Position numbers and translations under genes: made by a program
Origin: a virus
IMG/VR virus record: IMGVR_UViG_3300046740_000065
Coordinates: 1 to 24,403 of that record
Strand: one strand, 5' to 3'
Length of the DNA stretch: 24,403 bases
Part shown: positions 2,436-9,899 of the stretch, in pieces
How positions within the stretch are numbered: position 1 is the stretch's first letter
Layout of the letters: each line of letters begins with the position of its first letter
The notes under the pieces: generated by a model
Told to the model about the DNA's origin: nothing
The model's input: only the letters and a program-made list of their open reading frames with translations
Database searches by the model: none

Positions 2436-3161
2436 CTAGTTTGTCTCAGACTTTGATTCGTTGATGCTCCGACGCAGCATGTTAGCCGCAGCTTCGACAG
2501 TAATACCGCGTGACACCACGACAGTTTGCAGAGTGAACTCGCTGATACCAAGTTCCGCCGCATACTTGCGAAGCTCAACCTTATCGAGCTTCGTAGCTTT
2601 TTTGGTCTGAGACGTGGAAACCCGCTTTACGGTAGGCTTAACAGTAGCAGGCTTGTAGTTGATATCAGCAATCTTCAATTTCTCACGTTCTTCGACACGG
2701 AGAGAATTGGCAAGCTGATTCAGGTAGACTTGGATAGCTTTCTGATGATTACCAGCCTCTACAATTTGCTGCTGGGCGTCAAAAGCTACCTGTTTGAAGT
2801 GATTAAATCTCTCCGTGAGAACTTCGGCAAGCGCGTATGGCTTGTTAGAAATCTCAGGATTCTCATCAATGGATTTCTTCAAATCCACGATGGCAGTAGT
2901 GGCAGCATTGAATAGGTCCGTGCGAACTTGGACCGCGCTATCAGTCAGGCGCGAAGCATCAATAACTTTCGCCTCAGGACTGCTAGCAAATGCCGCTACG
3001 CGTGTATCTTTCTGCTCTTGTGAAAGCTGAGTGCTGGCTGCTGATTCAGTAGCCCAGCATTCATCGCAGAACCACATGTTACCATAGTGACAGGTGATGT
3101 TGACGTCTACTTTATCGCAGACTTCACATTCACCTTTCTTTACTAGTTGCGCTATTGACAT
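2436..3161 (-). CDS. Cys-pair (zinc-binding?) hypothetical protein, 241 aa
   Basis: First gene of the leftward unit reading into the helicase. Seen: the N-terminus has CEVC at residues 13-16, a further Cys about 12 residues on, and CDEC about 8 residues after that, suggesting a small zinc-binding module. The middle (about 50-165) is helical in character and rich in Ala, Gln and Glu. A Lys/Thr-rich linker follows, then a compact C-terminal segment (KVELRKYAAELGISEFTLQ onwards) that could be a small helical DNA-binding domain. The ATG at 3161 has GAGGGAC just upstream. It borders the 1.1-kb repeat region, so a role in binding it is possible, but position is the only support. The family was not recognised. 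Confidence 0.8.
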   Translation of the reverse strand: MSIAQLVKKGECEVCDKVDVNITCHYGNMWFCDECWATESAASTQLSQEQKDTRVAAFASSPEAKVIDASRLTDSAVQVRTDLFNAATTAIVDLKKSIDENPEISNKPYALAEVLTERFNHFKQVAFDAQQQIVEAGNHQKAIQVYLNQLANSLRVEEREKLKIADINYKPATVKPTVKRVSTSQTKKATKLDKVELRKYAAELGISEFTLQTVVVSRGITVEAAANMLRRSINESKSETN

Positions 3162-3448
3162 TGTGTCCCTCAGTCTCAGATTCTACAATATTATCGACCG
3201 TCGGGCCGTCGGCCCAGAGCCATAAGGTGCAAGAATCATACCTAATCCGGCGCAGCCCACTTCCACAATATGATGGGGTGCCGTAAAGTGTCACACCATA
3301 TGTTGGGGCTACAGCAAGTCTCGTGCCACCGGAATTTTGGATAAATCCAACGAAATGGATACGGAAGATTGGATTTTATGTCCTATTTAGAGGACACTTT
3401 TATTAAGGTATTGCGCCTATACTACTATAACTAGTATTCCGGAATATA

Positions 3449-3514
3449 CTTCCTACCTCATTCTTACCTCAGGCTTACCCCTTTCTTACCTCACCCCTAC
3501 CTCATTCCTACCTC
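3449..3514 (-). repeat. left iteron array: six 11-bp repeats, consensus GAGGTARGRAT on the minus strand
   Basis: On the plus strand TACC recurs at 3454, 3465, 3476, 3487, 3498 and 3509, exactly 11 bp apart. Read on the minus strand, the units are GAGGTAGGAAT, GAGGTAGGGGT, GAGGTAAGAAA, GGGGTAAGCCT, GAGGTAAGAAT and GAGGTAGGAAG. Eleven bp is about one helical turn, so a bound protein would sit on one face of the DNA. It mirrors the array at 3776-3841. Confidence 0.93.
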
Positions 3515-3624
3515 GGTTTTCCCCGTAAGTCGTTGAGCCACAAGGGTTTAGCTCGACCCCCCTGATTCCGGTAGGGTCCGGCATACACCTTGGAGTGTCC
3601 TAGATAGTGGACGGGGTAGGGTAG

Positions 3625-3660
3625 TATAATATTATATATTAAAAAAAAAAAAAAAAAAAA
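3625..3660. other. AT-rich core: TATAATATTATA palindrome followed by an A20 tract
   Basis: A 12-bp palindrome (3625-3636) is followed by 20 consecutive A (3641-3660). The midpoint of the two flanking 11-bp arrays is 3645, inside the A tract. Such a tract is stiff and easily melted, which suits an origin unwinding element. The exact A count in an assembly may be unreliable. A TATAAT match lies here on both strands but without a -35 element. Confidence 0.8.
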
Positions 3661-3775
3661 TAAAAGAGAACAACTCCCCCCACTACCGGAGGCGCTCAGA
3701 GGGTGCCCCAGCCTACCCCCGGAGAGGGAGGGGTCTAGCTAACTCGTTGCACTAGAGGCACTTAGAGCGATTCGG

Positions 3776-3841
3776 GAGGTAGGAAAGGGGTAGGAGTAGG
3801 GTAGGAATACGGTAGGGCTAAGGTAAGAGAGAGGTAAGAAG
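3776..3841 (+). repeat. right iteron array: six 11-bp repeats, consensus GAGGTARGRAT on the plus strand
   Basis: GGTA recurs at 3778, 3789, 3800, 3811, 3822 and 3833, exactly 11 bp apart. The units are GAGGTAGGAAA, GGGGTAGGAGT, AGGGTAGGAAT, ACGGTAGGGCT, AAGGTAAGAGA and GAGGTAAGAAG. Copy number, period and consensus equal those of the left array, in opposite orientation. Confidence 0.93.
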
Positions 3842-3895
3842 CACGTTCCATTATTGTATTGGTTGCATGTTTCAAAATAACAGATGCGAAGATAC

Positions 3896-4246
3896 GATTA
3901 GCAGAAATACTTTCGGTATCCGAAACAATGATTAGCAAAAACACTTCAGGTATCCTGAACCTCGCGCGATGGCCCTGCTTATGGAGTGCCCGCGATTAGC
4001 AGAAGGCATAACACCGTGGCCCTACTCGTGATTAGCAATAGGGGAAGTTCACATAATCGCGAGGTTTATAATATTATAAAGGGTTGTTGATTAGCAAGGG
4101 GACTTCGGGTATCCCGAACTTCCCGGATGGAATTGATTAGCAATGACACTACAATTAGCATTGGGACTTCCGGTATCCGGAACAGTAGGCAGGCGACTTG
4201 ATTAGCAGCTGGTGAACAACACTTGCCCTCGATTCTCTGATTAGCT
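3896..4246. repeat. nine GATTAGCA-type direct repeats, four coupled to covarying hairpins
   Basis: GATTAGCA or a one-base variant starts at 3896, 3930, 3994, 4030, 4089, 4135, 4153, 4200 and 4239, always in the same orientation. At 3896, 3930, 4089 and 4153 it is followed by exactly 5 nt, then ACTT, then a hairpin: TTTCGG-TAT-CCGAAA, TTCAGG-TAT-CCTGAA, TTCGGG-TAT-CCCGAA and TTCCGG-TAT-CCGGAA. The composite unit is 31 bp (3896-3926, 3930-3960, 4089-4119, 4153-4183). Stem positions change in pairs, so base pairing or dyad symmetry is conserved. Spacing between units is irregular. The function is unknown. Confidence 0.92.
4065..4080. repeat. 16-bp perfect AT palindrome containing ATAATATTAT
   Basis: TTTATAATATTATAAA is its own reverse complement. 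Its core ATAATATTAT also occurs at 3626-3635 and 6483-6492, and a near copy (AATATTAT) lies at 3187-3194. All copies found are in the two non-coding regions. Confidence 0.85.
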
Positions 4247-5518: not shown

Positions 5519-5869
5519 TTACTCGGTTGCAGTCTGCGCGGCAAGCAGGGAATCGACCTGCTTACGTGCAGCATCTTCCGGAACACCCAGCCGAATGTAG
5601 TCGCGCACCATGCGCTCCTTGATTTCATCCGGCGTGACTTCCGACGGGCGATACGGCAACAGTGCAGCCTGATACGCATTGCTCCGCGCATTGGCTTTGA
5701 GCACATCATTGACCATTGAAGTGATGTCCCACTTCTTTTCGGCAATGACAGCCGTTGCCTCATCGAGAGTGTTGCACTTTCGGAATTCGAAAGTTTTCTC
5801 GATTTTGTCGCCCGCCTGCGGGTGACCCTCGGGGATTGCAAAGGTGAACTTGCCAACCAGTGTTTCCAC
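5519..5869 (-). CDS. hypothetical protein, 116 aa, GTG start; first gene of the leftward operon
   Basis: The frame is open to an ATG at 5932, but the -10 element of the promoter lies at 5923-5928, so that ATG is upstream of the transcript. The GTG at 5869 has a perfect AAGGAG 5 nt upstream (5875-5880) and is chosen; an ATG at 5905 has no ribosome binding site. The N-terminal half has strands (VETLVGKFTFAIPEGHPQAG), the middle is helical (TLDEATAVIAEKKWDITSMV), and the C-terminus is helical and Arg/Ala-rich (DEIKERMVRDYIRLGVPEDA). As first gene behind a strong promoter it may be abundant early. The family was not recognised. Confidence 0.75.
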   Translation of the reverse strand: METLVGKFTFAIPEGHPQAGDKIEKTFEFRKCNTLDEATAVIAEKKWDITSMVNDVLKANARSNAYQAALLPYRPSEVTPDEIKERMVRDYIRLGVPEDAARKQVDSLLAAQTATE

Positions 5870-5922
5870 AACGACTCCTTGGGTTGACCGTGGCGGATTT
5901 GCCATCGGTCCAGCGTAGAACC

Positions 5923-5951
5923 ATTCTAGCATGGGCCAGACAATTTGTCAA
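5923..5951 (-). promoter_or_regulatory. strong sigma70-like leftward promoter
   Basis: On the minus strand, TTGACA (5951-5946) and TAGAAT (5928-5923) are separated by 17 nt, close to ideal for a bacterial housekeeping sigma factor. Transcription would start near 5916, giving a leader of about 47 nt to the GTG at 5869. The -35 overlaps one of two ATTTGTCAA copies (5943-5951 and 5964-5972) 21 bp apart, which could be operators. Confidence 0.85.
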
Positions 5952-6282
5952 GCCCCGAGTAGTATTTGTCAAGGTGCCCCCGTTGTCGCCCCCGACCCTG
6001 TTAATGCTTCGGGGAGTAGTGAGCACACCTATTCCGACGGACTTTTATCTTAATCGGGCCTGTCCTATCGGCCCCCCGTCAAACCCTTGCGCGGTAACTT
6101 CCACCTTGTGGCCGGTCCGCGCTCGGGCGACACCATACTATAAAGCATATGCCATACCATATGACTTTCGCTTCCGGAAGTGCTGTAACTCCTTTGTTCT
6201 CAACAACTTACACTTTTCGTAGGCGAAGGTGTATTCTACCTCGGGGCAGACACGATGTCCCTAGGTTGGCAGACTTTCCCAT

Positions 6283-6459
6283 GGTTGCACGCGGCTGCAC
6301 ACTCTCTAGTCCGACGCGGGGTAGAATTTCACAAGGCTGCGCTGATTGACATATTGTTTTACAAAATTGCACAGAATTTCACAGGGTTGCACACAATGGC
6401 TCTTCCCACCCCTGCATACCCCTGCACAGCAATGCACACAGTTGCACACTTTTGCGCGG
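6283..6459. repeat. array of about 14 degenerate 10-bp units, consensus rrTTGCACAn
   Basis: TGCAC or a close variant starts at 6286 and 6296; then at 6328, 6338, 6358, 6368, 6378 and 6388, all on a 10-bp grid with a degenerate site near 6348; then at 6413, 6423, 6433, 6443 and 6453. The best units are GGTTGCACGC, AATTGCACAG, AATTTCACAG, GGTTGCACAC and AGTTGCACAC. The 10-bp period places sites on one DNA face. It lies 110-285 bp upstream of the rightward promoter. It may be a regulator-binding, packaging or partition site. Confidence 0.85.
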
Positions 6460-6540
6460 ACATGGCAATCATCTGACTCGACATAATATTATTGGGACTC
6501 CTCGAATTTTCCCAGAAAAAAAAAGTTATTTTATTGATTC

Positions 6541-6552
6541 ACTTCCGGAAGT
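6541..6552. repeat. 12-bp palindrome ACTTCCGGAAGT upstream of the rightward promoter
   Basis: A perfect 12-bp palindrome lies 14 bp upstream of the -35 element. Its core TTCCGGAA also occurs at 3437, 5451, 5576, 6172 and 6628. Possible operator half of a phage regulator. Confidence 0.7.
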
Positions 6553-6566
6553 AAAGAATAATAAAC

Positions 6567-6595
6567 TTGACTTTCAGTCCGGGTCGTGGTAGACT
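6567..6595 (+). promoter_or_regulatory. strong sigma70-like rightward promoter for the virion operon, inside an inverted repeat
   Basis: TTGACT (6567-6572) and TAGACT (6590-6595) are 17 nt apart, with an A9 tract 43 bp upstream that could act as an UP element. Transcription would start near 6602, 50 nt before the first gene. A perfect 9-bp inverted repeat, TTTCAGTCC (6572-6580) and GGACTGAAA (6613-6621), brackets the -10 and start site. Its centres are 41 bp apart, about four helical turns, suggesting an operator pair. Confidence 0.82.
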
Positions 6596-6651
6596 CACCA
6601 TGCCATTCCGAGGGACTGAAAATCAGCTTCCGGAATAACTAGGAGAATTGT

Positions 6652-6885
6652 ATGTCAGCAACCGTCACGATTACGGCAAAGTCGGGACCGAACATCGCCA
6701 ATACTGCGGCAGTCTACACAGGTATTACTGGCGTTCTGTTCCTTCCCGACCGTCGAATCATTCAGTTGTTCACAGGTGGAGATACCAACTCACCTCCTGA
6801 ACACGAGTTTGATTTGACTGGAACGACTACTATTACTGGAACAATCGCGGGAACTGCTGGAACTCTGACCCTGACTATCTCGTAA
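6652..6885 (+). CDS. small beta-rich hypothetical protein, 77 aa
   Basis: First gene of the rightward virion operon, with AGGAG 6 nt before the ATG. Composition is Thr/Gly/Ile-rich with alternating strands and no Cys; the C-terminus (TITGTIAGTAGTLTLTIS) is strongly beta-like. A role as a small capsid-associated or accessory protein is plausible from position and composition only. Confidence 0.8.
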   Translation: MSATVTITAKSGPNIANTAAVYTGITGVLFLPDRRIIQLFTGGDTNSPPEHEFDLTGTTTITGTIAGTAGTLTLTIS

Positions 6886-6900
6886 GTTCGCGAGGTTGTC

Positions 6901-7074
6901 ATGGCTGACCCAACACCAGCGGATAGACTACTGAATAGAATCACAAAGATTCTAGCTCAGTATAACAATATTGAGAGTGACATTCCAGTGCATGACCCCT
7001 ATTGGGATTTAATCAATAGGTATCGTCATCACTCGAAGAATCCGGCAGACCCCGTTGATTTGACTGGGGTGTAA
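6901..7074 (+). CDS. hypothetical protein, 57 aa, tandem paralogue of the next gene
   Basis: ATG preceded by GAGG at 5 nt spacing. Seen: an N-terminal helix then YNNIESDIPVHDPYWDLINR, which matches YNYKESDIPQRHNYWKLLNV in the next gene. The shared pattern is IL..YN..ESDIP....YW.L.N.YR. The two genes are 1 nt apart. The short length and conserved ESDIP/YW core suggest a small protein-binding module; no function is known to me. Confidence 0.75.
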   Translation: MADPTPADRLLNRITKILAQYNNIESDIPVHDPYWDLINRYRHHSKNPADPVDLTGV

Positions 7075-7249: not shown

Positions 7250-7807
7250 ATGCCGATGGGAATAGTTTCAGACAAGGACTTCGAGAAGGAAGTGGATAAC
7301 TCAGTCCCTTCTAAAGAGAGTCCTGTCACTACAGTTATCGAACCAATTAACAGGGGACGCGGGGCAGGGAACGTAGAAGTTCCAGATTCCCTGCGTGCTG
7401 TTATTGGTGACGAGGCTATTACTAACGGTAGACAATCTGCCGTAGAATTAGCTACTCGCTTCGGTATTTCCCCATCCAGCGCATCTGCATACGGAGTTGG
7501 TGCCACATCAACTTCCAGTTACGCCGAACGACCCAACGGAAAAGTAATCAAAGAAGCGAAAGAGAGAATCGCGAAGCGTGCGCGAGGTAAACTTATGCGT
7601 GCGCTCAATAAGATTACTGATGATAAACTAGAATCAGCTAACGCAAAAGACTTGGCGGGTATTGCCAAGGATATGTCGGCCATTGTCAAAACTATGGAAC
7701 CTGATGATAGAGGGATTCCACAGAATAACAATGGACCGACATTTGTTTTTTATGCACCACAAATGCGTAGTGAAGAACAATACGCTGTAGTGCATACCAA
7801 GGAGTAG
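7250..7807 (+). CDS. putative terminase small subunit, 185 aa
   Basis: Position just before the large terminase and a helix-turn-helix-like segment at about residues 61-82 (AVELATRFGISPSSASAY) suggest the DNA-recognition subunit. A basic helical region (KVIKEAKERIAKRARGKLMR, about 98-117) follows, then an Ala/Lys-rich helix (AKDLAGIAKDMSAIVK) of a type seen in environmental-phage small terminases. Inference: it binds the packaging start site and recruits the large subunit. The ATG at 7250 has AGGA about 9 nt upstream; an in-frame ATG lies at 7256. The alternative is another DNA-binding protein. Confidence 0.65.
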   Translation: MPMGIVSDKDFEKEVDNSVPSKESPVTTVIEPINRGRGAGNVEVPDSLRAVIGDEAITNGRQSAVELATRFGISPSSASAYGVGATSTSSYAERPNGKVIKEAKERIAKRARGKLMRALNKITDDKLESANAKDLAGIAKDMSAIVKTMEPDDRGIPQNNNGPTFVFYAPQMRSEEQYAVVHTKE

Positions 7808-8061: not shown

Positions 8062-8232
8062 ATGCTAACACTTCTATTCTGGGTGCTCGTTTGTGGCGTT
8101 ATTGCGTGGGCAGTCTACGCACTGGATATTCCTCAGCCATTCAAGACAATTGCAATTGCAGTTCTCTTGGTAGTTGTGCTGGTGATTCTGTTCTCAGTGC
8201 TTGGTGTTCACACAGGTATTCCAGTTAACTAA
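8062..8232 (+). CDS. small two-helix membrane protein, 56 aa
   Basis: Seen: two hydrophobic segments (about residues 2-20 and 29-48) joined by the short loop LDIPQPFKT, an arrangement resembling the short Thivi_2564-type membrane proteins found in bacteria and phages. Its TAA overlaps the large terminase start (TAATG). A holin-like role is possible because of size and topology, but no lysis gene lies nearby. Confidence 0.72.
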   Translation: MLTLLFWVLVCGVIAWAVYALDIPQPFKTIAIAVLLVVVLVILFSVLGVHTGIPVN

Positions 8233-9899
8233 TGGCTTTTGATAAGGGCTTTTGGAAGCCCAATAGGAAGCAGGAAGAATTTCTATCCCTTCCTACTACA
8301 ATCTTCGAGGGACTGTATGGAGGTGGCAACGCATCTGGTAAATCAGATGTGCTACTTATATACGGCCTCATCAATAAGTGGCATGAGAACCCGAAGTTCA
8401 AACAGGTTTTCATGCGTAGGACTTATCCTGAACTACGTAATGAAATTGTTCCACGCTCTCGGGAAATCTATCCGAAGTTTGGGGCAACATTCAATAAGAC
8501 TGATATGACGTGGACGTTCCCTCGTCCTGATGAAATTGGGGGAACGGGCGCGAGGACTGGCGCACTAATATTCTTGGCGCATTGTGAGGAAGAAGATGAT
8601 GCCCATAAATATGATTCAATGGAAATCAATCTATTTACCCCTGACGAACTTACGACCTTCACTGAATACATCTATTTATACATTGGCTTCACTAGAGTCC
8701 GAACTAGCGACCCTGCACTACCTGCTATTATACGTGCGGCAGGTATGCCCGGAGGTATTGGGCACACCTTCACTAAGAAGCGATTTGTATCTCCAGCACC
8801 CTCTGGAACGATTATTGTAGGTAAGGGAAACGTAAAAAGAATTTACATCCATTCAACTGTCGCTGATAACCCACACGCTGACCCGCAATATACGGCTCGT
8901 CTCGATGGTATACCAAATGAGGCTGAGCGTAAAGCGAGGAAGTATGGAGATTGGGACGCTTATCAGGGACAGGTGTTTGACGAGTTTAGAGATAAGCAAT
9001 ATCCTGATGAACCCGAAAATGCACTTCATGTGTTGCCAGCATTTGAGATTCCAGACTGGTGGCCGAGGTTCGTAGTAGGGGATTGGGGTTTTGCTGCGAT
9101 GACCTACATAGGTTTCTACGCAGTATCACCTACTAAGCGTCTTTACTTGTATAGGGAACTATACTGGTTAAAGACTAAGATTGAGGAATGGGCACCTGTC
9201 GTAAAGGATTACATCGACAGGGAACATCCTAAAGTAGTTAAGTTCTGTAAGTCAGCCTCACAAGATAGAGGCCAAGAACATACTATTCAGCAGCAGATTG
9301 AAACTGCACTTGAGCGTCCTATTGAACTAAGTTCATCTGGTCCGGGTTCGCGTATATCCGGTAAGATGTTAGTTCATGAATACTTGAGATGGGCACAGAA
9401 GCCTATCATTCCACCGTCAGAGATGCCGGTATATTCTGAAGAATATGCAATGTGGATTCTCCGGAATAAGGGTCTGGAGGAATACAAAGCATATCATAGA
9501 CTATTCGACCCTCCTGATGAGGAAACTAATATTCCGAAGCTACAGATTTTCTGTTGCACGGAACATATTCATGAAGGGCATCCGAATTGTTGCCCACTAA
9601 TGATAGACGCTATCAAGGCTTGCTCTTATGATAAGAAGGGCAACTCTGGTAAACCTGCTGAGGATGTTGCGGAGTTCGAGGGGGATGACCCTTACGATGA
9701 CCTCCGATATGCAGTTGACTCAGCAGAGCGTTATTTCGACGATGCTTCGTCAGAATTTCAAAAGATTCAGAAACAGGAGGCTATTACTCAGGCACTAAAG
9801 AATAATCAGGACTGGACTGCGTATTATCGCAACATGAGAGCGATAGACCAGCCATCCAAAATGCAATCTGTCACTAGATTCCATAGAAGGAGAGGATAA
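8232..9899 (+). CDS. terL: terminase large subunit, 555 aa
   Basis: The DNA-packaging motor: an N-terminal ATPase pumps DNA into the prohead and a C-terminal RNase H-like nuclease cuts it. Seen: P-loop GGGNASGKS at 30-38; the family-typical segment ALIFLAHCEEEDDAHKYDSM at 111-130 leading to FTPDEL (D138, E139), the probable Walker B/catalytic glutamate region; VVGDWG with D284, the probable first nuclease acidic residue; and DDPYDDLRYA near 485-494, the probable last acidic cluster. Length is normal for the family. It starts at an ATG overlapping the upstream stop and its own stop overlaps the next start. The small subunit candidate is about 0.4 kb upstream and the portal downstream, a standard packaging module. 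Confidence 0.95.
   Translation: MAFDKGFWKPNRKQEEFLSLPTTIFEGLYGGGNASGKSDVLLIYGLINKWHENPKFKQVFMRRTYPELRNEIVPRSREIYPKFGATFNKTDMTWTFPRPDEIGGTGARTGALIFLAHCEEEDDAHKYDSMEINLFTPDELTTFTEYIYLYIGFTRVRTSDPALPAIIRAAGMPGGIGHTFTKKRFVSPAPSGTIIVGKGNVKRIYIHSTVADNPHADPQYTARLDGIPNEAERKARKYGDWDAYQGQVFDEFRDKQYPDEPENALHVLPAFEIPDWWPRFVVGDWGFAAMTYIGFYAVSPTKRLYLYRELYWLKTKIEEWAPVVKDYIDREHPKVVKFCKSASQDRGQEHTIQQQIETALERPIELSSSGPGSRISGKMLVHEYLRWAQKPIIPPSEMPVYSEEYAMWILRNKGLEEYKAYHRLFDPPDEETNIPKLQIFCCTEHIHEGHPNCCPLMIDAIKACSYDKKGNSGKPAEDVAEFEGDDPYDDLRYAVDSAERYFDDASSEFQKIQKQEAITQALKNNQDWTAYYRNMRAIDQPSKMQSVTRFHRRRG

Follow-up and report, generated by a model that had tools for sequence, protein, structure and literature searches.

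A helically phased TTGCACA array ahead of the late operon of a soil phage, a possible control site alternating with a sigma-54-type box in related phages

The array and its setting

What purpose is served by a helically phased run of short repeats lying between two divergent phage operons? The question arises at positions 6283-6459 of a 24,403-base fragment of an uncultivated soil phage record (G000), which was analysed over its whole length and is referred to here as the window. An initial annotation had recognised about 14 degenerate TTGCACA units there, in three blocks on a 10-bp grid, and had proposed an activator or repressor array, a packaging site or a second origin element.

Periodicity was evaluated by autocorrelation against dinucleotide shuffles (n=2000). 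The self-match of the segment was 75 at lag 10 (41.6±6.0 in shuffles) and 70 at lag 20, values that none of the 2000 shuffles reached in either case, and the segment ranked first at lag 10 among all segments of equal length in the window; the runner-up, near 3556, probably reflects a poly-A tract. The proposed 10-bp periodicity was thus borne out, as was the count of 14 units, grouped 2+7+5 in three blocks that each keep a 10-bp grid. A single grid throughout did not hold, the offsets being 32 bp between blocks 1 and 2 and 25 bp, i.e. half a turn, between blocks 2 and 3. Nine units match TTGCACA at six or more of the seven positions (6285, 6295, 6327, 6367, 6377, 6387, 6422, 6432 and 6442) and five weaker ones were placed on the block grids by eye (6337, 6347, 6357, 6412 and 6452). 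Block 1 (6285-6301, + strand) comprises TTGCACG and CTGCACA and is not significant when its 28 bp are taken alone (131/2000 shuffles). Block 2 (6327-6393, +) holds seven units in 10-bp steps, the second to fourth of which are degenerate, and block 3 (6412-6458, +) holds five at the same step, which are displaced by half a turn relative to block 2 and end in TTGCGCG. The array consensus differs from that of the 11-bp arrays elsewhere in the window, as had been claimed, and a search for a known RNA returned none.

The array lies in a non-coding gap of about 0.7 kb between the divergent ORFs 5519-5932 (-) and 6652-6885 (+), flanked by oppositely facing sigma-70-like promoters of the two operons. 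Its placement upstream of the virion promoter was confirmed, the late promoter being TTGACT-17-TAGACT with a TG before the -10 (6567-6595, +); an inverted repeat read from the sequence, TTTCAGTCC (6572-6580) and GGACTGAAA (6613-6621), surrounds this -10 element and is similar in relatives. The leftward promoter, TTGACA-17-TAGAAT (11/12), is at 5923-5951 (-). The annotated start of ORF 5519-5932 at 5932 is probably too early, as the MKTLVGKF start of a relative aligns about 22 codons in, which would put this promoter upstream of the gene. Between the leftward promoter and the array are a leftward promoter-like element, TGGTATGGCATATGC (GG-N10-GC) followed by TTTATAGTATGG (6145-6159, -), and an IHF-like site (6198-6210, +) with one mismatch to the IHF consensus WATCAANNNNTTR, and perfect in some relatives. 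Palindromes of the form TTCCGGAA are dispersed in non-coding DNA, at about 6170, 6545 and 6630 and elsewhere in the window, and also in relatives.

Rightward of the array are a candidate small terminase (TerS) of 185 aa with a helix-turn-helix (HTH) and a helical hairpin (7250-7807, +), the large terminase TerL (8232-9899, +; phrog_979, E 5e-32), a 779-aa protein that is a candidate portal by its usual position, and a major head protein with a weak phrog match. The array is about 0.8 kb from the candidate terS and 1.8 kb from terL, an adjacency to terminase genes like that of cosB and pac sites.

Several other repeats were seen in the window. Two 11-bp arrays of the TACCTCATTCC type (3450-3514 and 3777-3825) lie in opposite orientation around an A+T/poly-A tract at about 3630-3665, and GATTAGCA is repeated about nine times, at irregular intervals, in the non-coding DNA at 3890-4245. 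A TGTCC-N7/8-GGACA palindrome, a possible operator, precedes the first leftward gene at about 3380-3400 and is present in many of the G001-G012 relatives as well. An exact sigma-54-type site, TGGCACGAGACTTGC (3314-3328, -), precedes the leftward gene 2436-3161; it was the sole match found, with 0 mismatches, where 1.27 would be expected by chance at up to one mismatch, and the 11-bp array at 3450-3514 lies further upstream in an enhancer-like placement.

One site in the relatives, with two alternative elements

A TerL search yielded 80 loci, 54 of which had at least 1.5 kb of upstream DNA. A homologous core with rigid spacing (6395-6476, + in the window) was found in 21 of the 54 (type B). In a leave-one-out test of the core profile all class members exceeded a score of 50 and no other locus reached 12 (shuffled maximum -5.6). 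Type-B units are at 0, -10, -20, -30 and -45, -55, -65, -75 from the last TTGCACA, the 25-bp offset being kept, and reverse units (TGTGCAA) lie mostly at -74 to -125.

Phasing was counted in 18 of 23 type-B sequences, omitting the near-duplicates L026, L059, L063 and L083 and the reversed L091. The 39 units inside the core are all in phase with one another. Upstream of it there are 62 units (5.1 in shuffles) with a Rayleigh Z(10) of 38.2 against a shuffle maximum of 6.5, so that the spacing is indeed conserved in relatives, a point on which the annotation had staked its proposal; farther upstream units are still enriched (45 vs 8.9) with no phase in common with the core. No reading frame through the array stays open in every one of the 18 loci, and a coding array, which the annotation had already dismissed, was rejected. 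Runs of three or more strong units were confined to the control region in the three type-B contigs scanned (G004, G005, G006). The TTGAC-TTTCAG of the late promoter occurs in 18/18 loci, exactly or with one or two bases changed, at 98-192 bp from the last TTGCACA, a spread of 94 bp with no common phase. A core flank, GGTCCCATA, recurs about 60-130 bp downstream, in the late promoter region, in 8/14 type-B sequences.

At the position homologous to the window box 6442-6458, 23 of the 54 relatives have instead YTGGCAYG-N4-TTGC (type A), the first base being absent from the box of L037. The flanks ACCCCT, GGTCCCAT and GCAATCA are common to both types. Promoters of the sigma-54 class are defined by a -24/-12 consensus, and this was used for the scans. 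Across 81 sequences totalling 686 kb the strict pattern matched 28 times (mean in shuffles 0.6), and 22 of the 28 fell at the homologous site. A slightly relaxed pattern matches 23/23 type-A loci, a count that is partly circular because L050 was placed in type A only after the scan. Exclusion was mutual: no 3-unit TGCAC run was found upstream of terL in any of the 23 A loci, and no -24/-12 box between -150 and +60 in any of the 22 type-B sequences checked (all 23 but the reversed L091). The window box itself reads TTGCACACTTTTGCGCG, and a GG-N10-GC element was not found at the core within the same limits. Ten of the 54 loci were left unclassified; the contigs of L012, L013, L024, L064, L066 and L074 may end too near terL, and in L045, L065, L077 and L080 the core was not found in the 3.8-6 kb scanned upstream. 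L080 has a different 10-bp array, of the TACGACACGT type, about 4.3 kb upstream of terL, with neither the core nor a candidate TerS.

On a TerL tree of 46 leaves at least four A/B changes are needed (shuffled labels: mean 15.7, minimum 11), which indicates that the type is inherited within clades yet swaps repeatedly. A TTGGCA variant of the phased unit, which would have united the two types, was unsupported for forward copies, and the phase of reverse copies is weak (9/22 distances, from partly related loci).

The candidate TerS, which has a weak HTH_24 match, keeps its recognition helix in both types (alignment of 32), and was rejected as reader of the A/B difference because none of its HTH columns separates A from B. 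Mean TerS identity is 0.535 between A and B and 0.536 within B; for TerL the values are 0.753 and 0.752. Its structural model (pLDDT 67.7) gave no significant fold match, and searches found neither a PDB relative, nor a homologue of the 185-aa candidate in phage records, nor a TerL relative in genome contigs. Among 13 records no gene cleanly follows the type. An enhancer-binding protein (PF00158) was found in 0/12 relative records, all possibly fragments, and the activator may be the host's.

Late-operon control and its rivals

Our tentative reading, put at slightly below even odds (roughly 0.5), is that the array is a control site of the late operon and that a multimeric DNA-binding protein assembles there along one helical face. 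The argument is comparative. Array and box occupy one site, have common flanks and exclude each other, and are therefore taken to do the same job, of which promoter control would be the simplest; the two look like interchangeable control modules, and in one phage family the control site would then take alternately the form of a phased binding array or of a sigma-54-type box. The fixed position of the units relative to the core in 18 type-B loci and the divergent-promoter setting also favour control. Against it are the absence of a promoter at the core in type B, the marking of P2-like cos sites by similar arrays, and the search for a binding protein, which found none for the array and none cleanly type-linked among the 13 records.

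From this pattern we infer that a protein encoded by host or phage could occupy adjacent TTGCACA units along a single face of the helix. The bound units would form a rigid protein-DNA complex about 90-130 bp long between the divergent operons, shifted by half a turn from block 2 to block 3, and might time transcription of the virion operon by looping or blocking. Such control would do without a fixed-phase contact between the bound protein and the sigma-70 promoter. An activator of the classical kind, working on the 6567 promoter at a fixed phase, is disfavoured because TTGAC may lie anywhere from 98 to 192 bp from the last TTGCACA, and neither the constant distance nor the helical phase of a class I or class II activator operator was found.

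A packaging initiation site of the cosB or pac kind, where the small terminase would recognise the phased units, perhaps wrap the DNA and pass it to TerL, is doubtful but has to be taken as a serious rival, since TGCACA arrays occur near P2-like cos sites and near terS in other phages. The rigid core is a single site and has the canonical location, the non-coding gap ahead of the candidate terS and terL. In a viral collection (TTGCACA-N3)x3 was found in 26 stretches, against 6 for a permuted unit, and 43 of 134 array loci have P2-like portal or terminase neighbours. Cos distances were analysed for 32 of these 43, from a list not selected by result. A cos homologue was present in 31/32 of these P88-like loci, and in 30/31 the units stand at about -123, -113, -103 and -31 from it; the TGCAT units of P2 are at -123, -111, -101 and -29 from the annotated cos and those of 186 at -124, -111, -101 and -29. 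The P2-like loci (L296, L297, L300, L301, L175-L252) thus have TGCAT (P2, 186) or TGCACA (P88-like) at conserved cos distances, and the change affects all units of a locus at once, as a single terminase-binding protein would lead one to expect. The P88-like cos is presumably where homology to P2 and 186 puts it; the ends of record LR595891 were considered as this cos and dropped, as the homology places it about 80 bp further on. No P2-type cos was seen by eye in the window or in the relatives that were read, and the window units, 10 bp apart in their blocks, do not follow the -123, -112, -102 and -30 pattern; the HP1 ends showed no such array. Contig ends were also rejected as a sign of termini, not being exact between near-identical contigs.

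Outside the P2-like group, 33 records were searched and 18 had a TerL match; the array lay less than 2.5 kb from TerL in 7/18, which favours packaging, but at 3.4-25 kb in 11/18 (distances computed by hand, those of some additional records being left out). Arrays are close to a Pfam-confirmed TerS in L143, L209 and L216, and the gene before the L216 array was guessed to be a RinA/ArpU activator, which the search did not confirm. In a Mu-like Acinetobacter prophage, on the other hand, the array adjoins a repressor and other early regulators. With such mixed placement, TGCACA arrays do not go with any single function. An argument against packaging is that the site would be missing from type-A phages although their TerS helix is the same; retention of the array, as expected of a cosB or pac site, was not seen in these 23 relatives, which have the sigma-54-like box instead. 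Furthermore, the 185-aa TerS is a candidate only, and the TerS of HK97 reads its site via a channel and not as a wrapped array (PMC11331095). A broader version, in which unrelated tailed phages converged on a phased TTGCACA/TGCAY array for terminase recognition, the window has a long cosB around which TerS wraps DNA once per turn, and the sisters swapped the module, appears unlikely. If the array is a packaging site, its length and phasing would offer a direct test of how a small terminase reads DNA.

A second replication origin or partition element, with initiator iterons beside A+T-rich DNA at 6480-6560, is improbable. A+T-rich DNA lies 3' of the array in the relatives that were read, the cumulative GC skew has its minimum near 6500-7000, and many relatives have oppositely oriented unit blocks upstream; but divergent genes would also produce such a minimum, the region at 3450-3825 with its inverted 11-bp arrays looks more origin-like, no initiator gene was found adjoining the array, and sister phages have a promoter-like box in its place. 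Functionless tandem-repeat slippage is very improbable indeed. It could make many of the 45 (TTGCACA-N3)x3 stretches in genome contigs, which are identical 10-mers, but in the window the spacer changes from one unit to the next, and between phages up to about 30% apart in TerL the unit positions persist through changes in spacer sequence. The three proposed functions have fared unequally: regulation gained from the sigma-54-type equivalent in the sisters and packaging from other phages, and the origin acquired no specific support.

Comparison with known systems

A late operon of a phage alternating between an array and a sigma-54-type box was not found in the literature covered, which mostly excluded subscription journals, and TTGCACA or TGTGCAA as words returned nothing usable. 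How the small terminase reads DNA is called unresolved in a review (PMC9611059), and PMC5694545 cites the classic work on the cos sites of P2 and P4. The HK97 TerS-cos system is similar in that a site upstream of the packaging genes is read by TerS, and differs in being a single 15-bp site with the DNA threaded through the ring (PMC11331095).

The Peduoviridae (P2, 186 and P88-like phages) share with the window 10-bp-phased, TGCA-centred units near packaging genes. Theirs, however, are 3+1 units at a fixed distance from cos, whereas the window has 14 units in three blocks and an unrelated TerL. Cox/Xis-type filaments and the tandem sites of OmpR/PhoB likewise involve cooperative binding to direct repeats spaced by one helical turn. 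Such a gene was not identified here, and the units of the array far outnumber those of a pho box. Compared with sigma-54 (RpoN) promoters, which have upstream activating sequences and IHF sites, the core of the window differs in having no -24/-12 element, and a phage enhancer-binding protein was not among the 12 possibly fragmentary records, whereas the type-A relatives resemble these promoters in having both the YTGGCAYG-N4-TTGC box and IHF-like sites.
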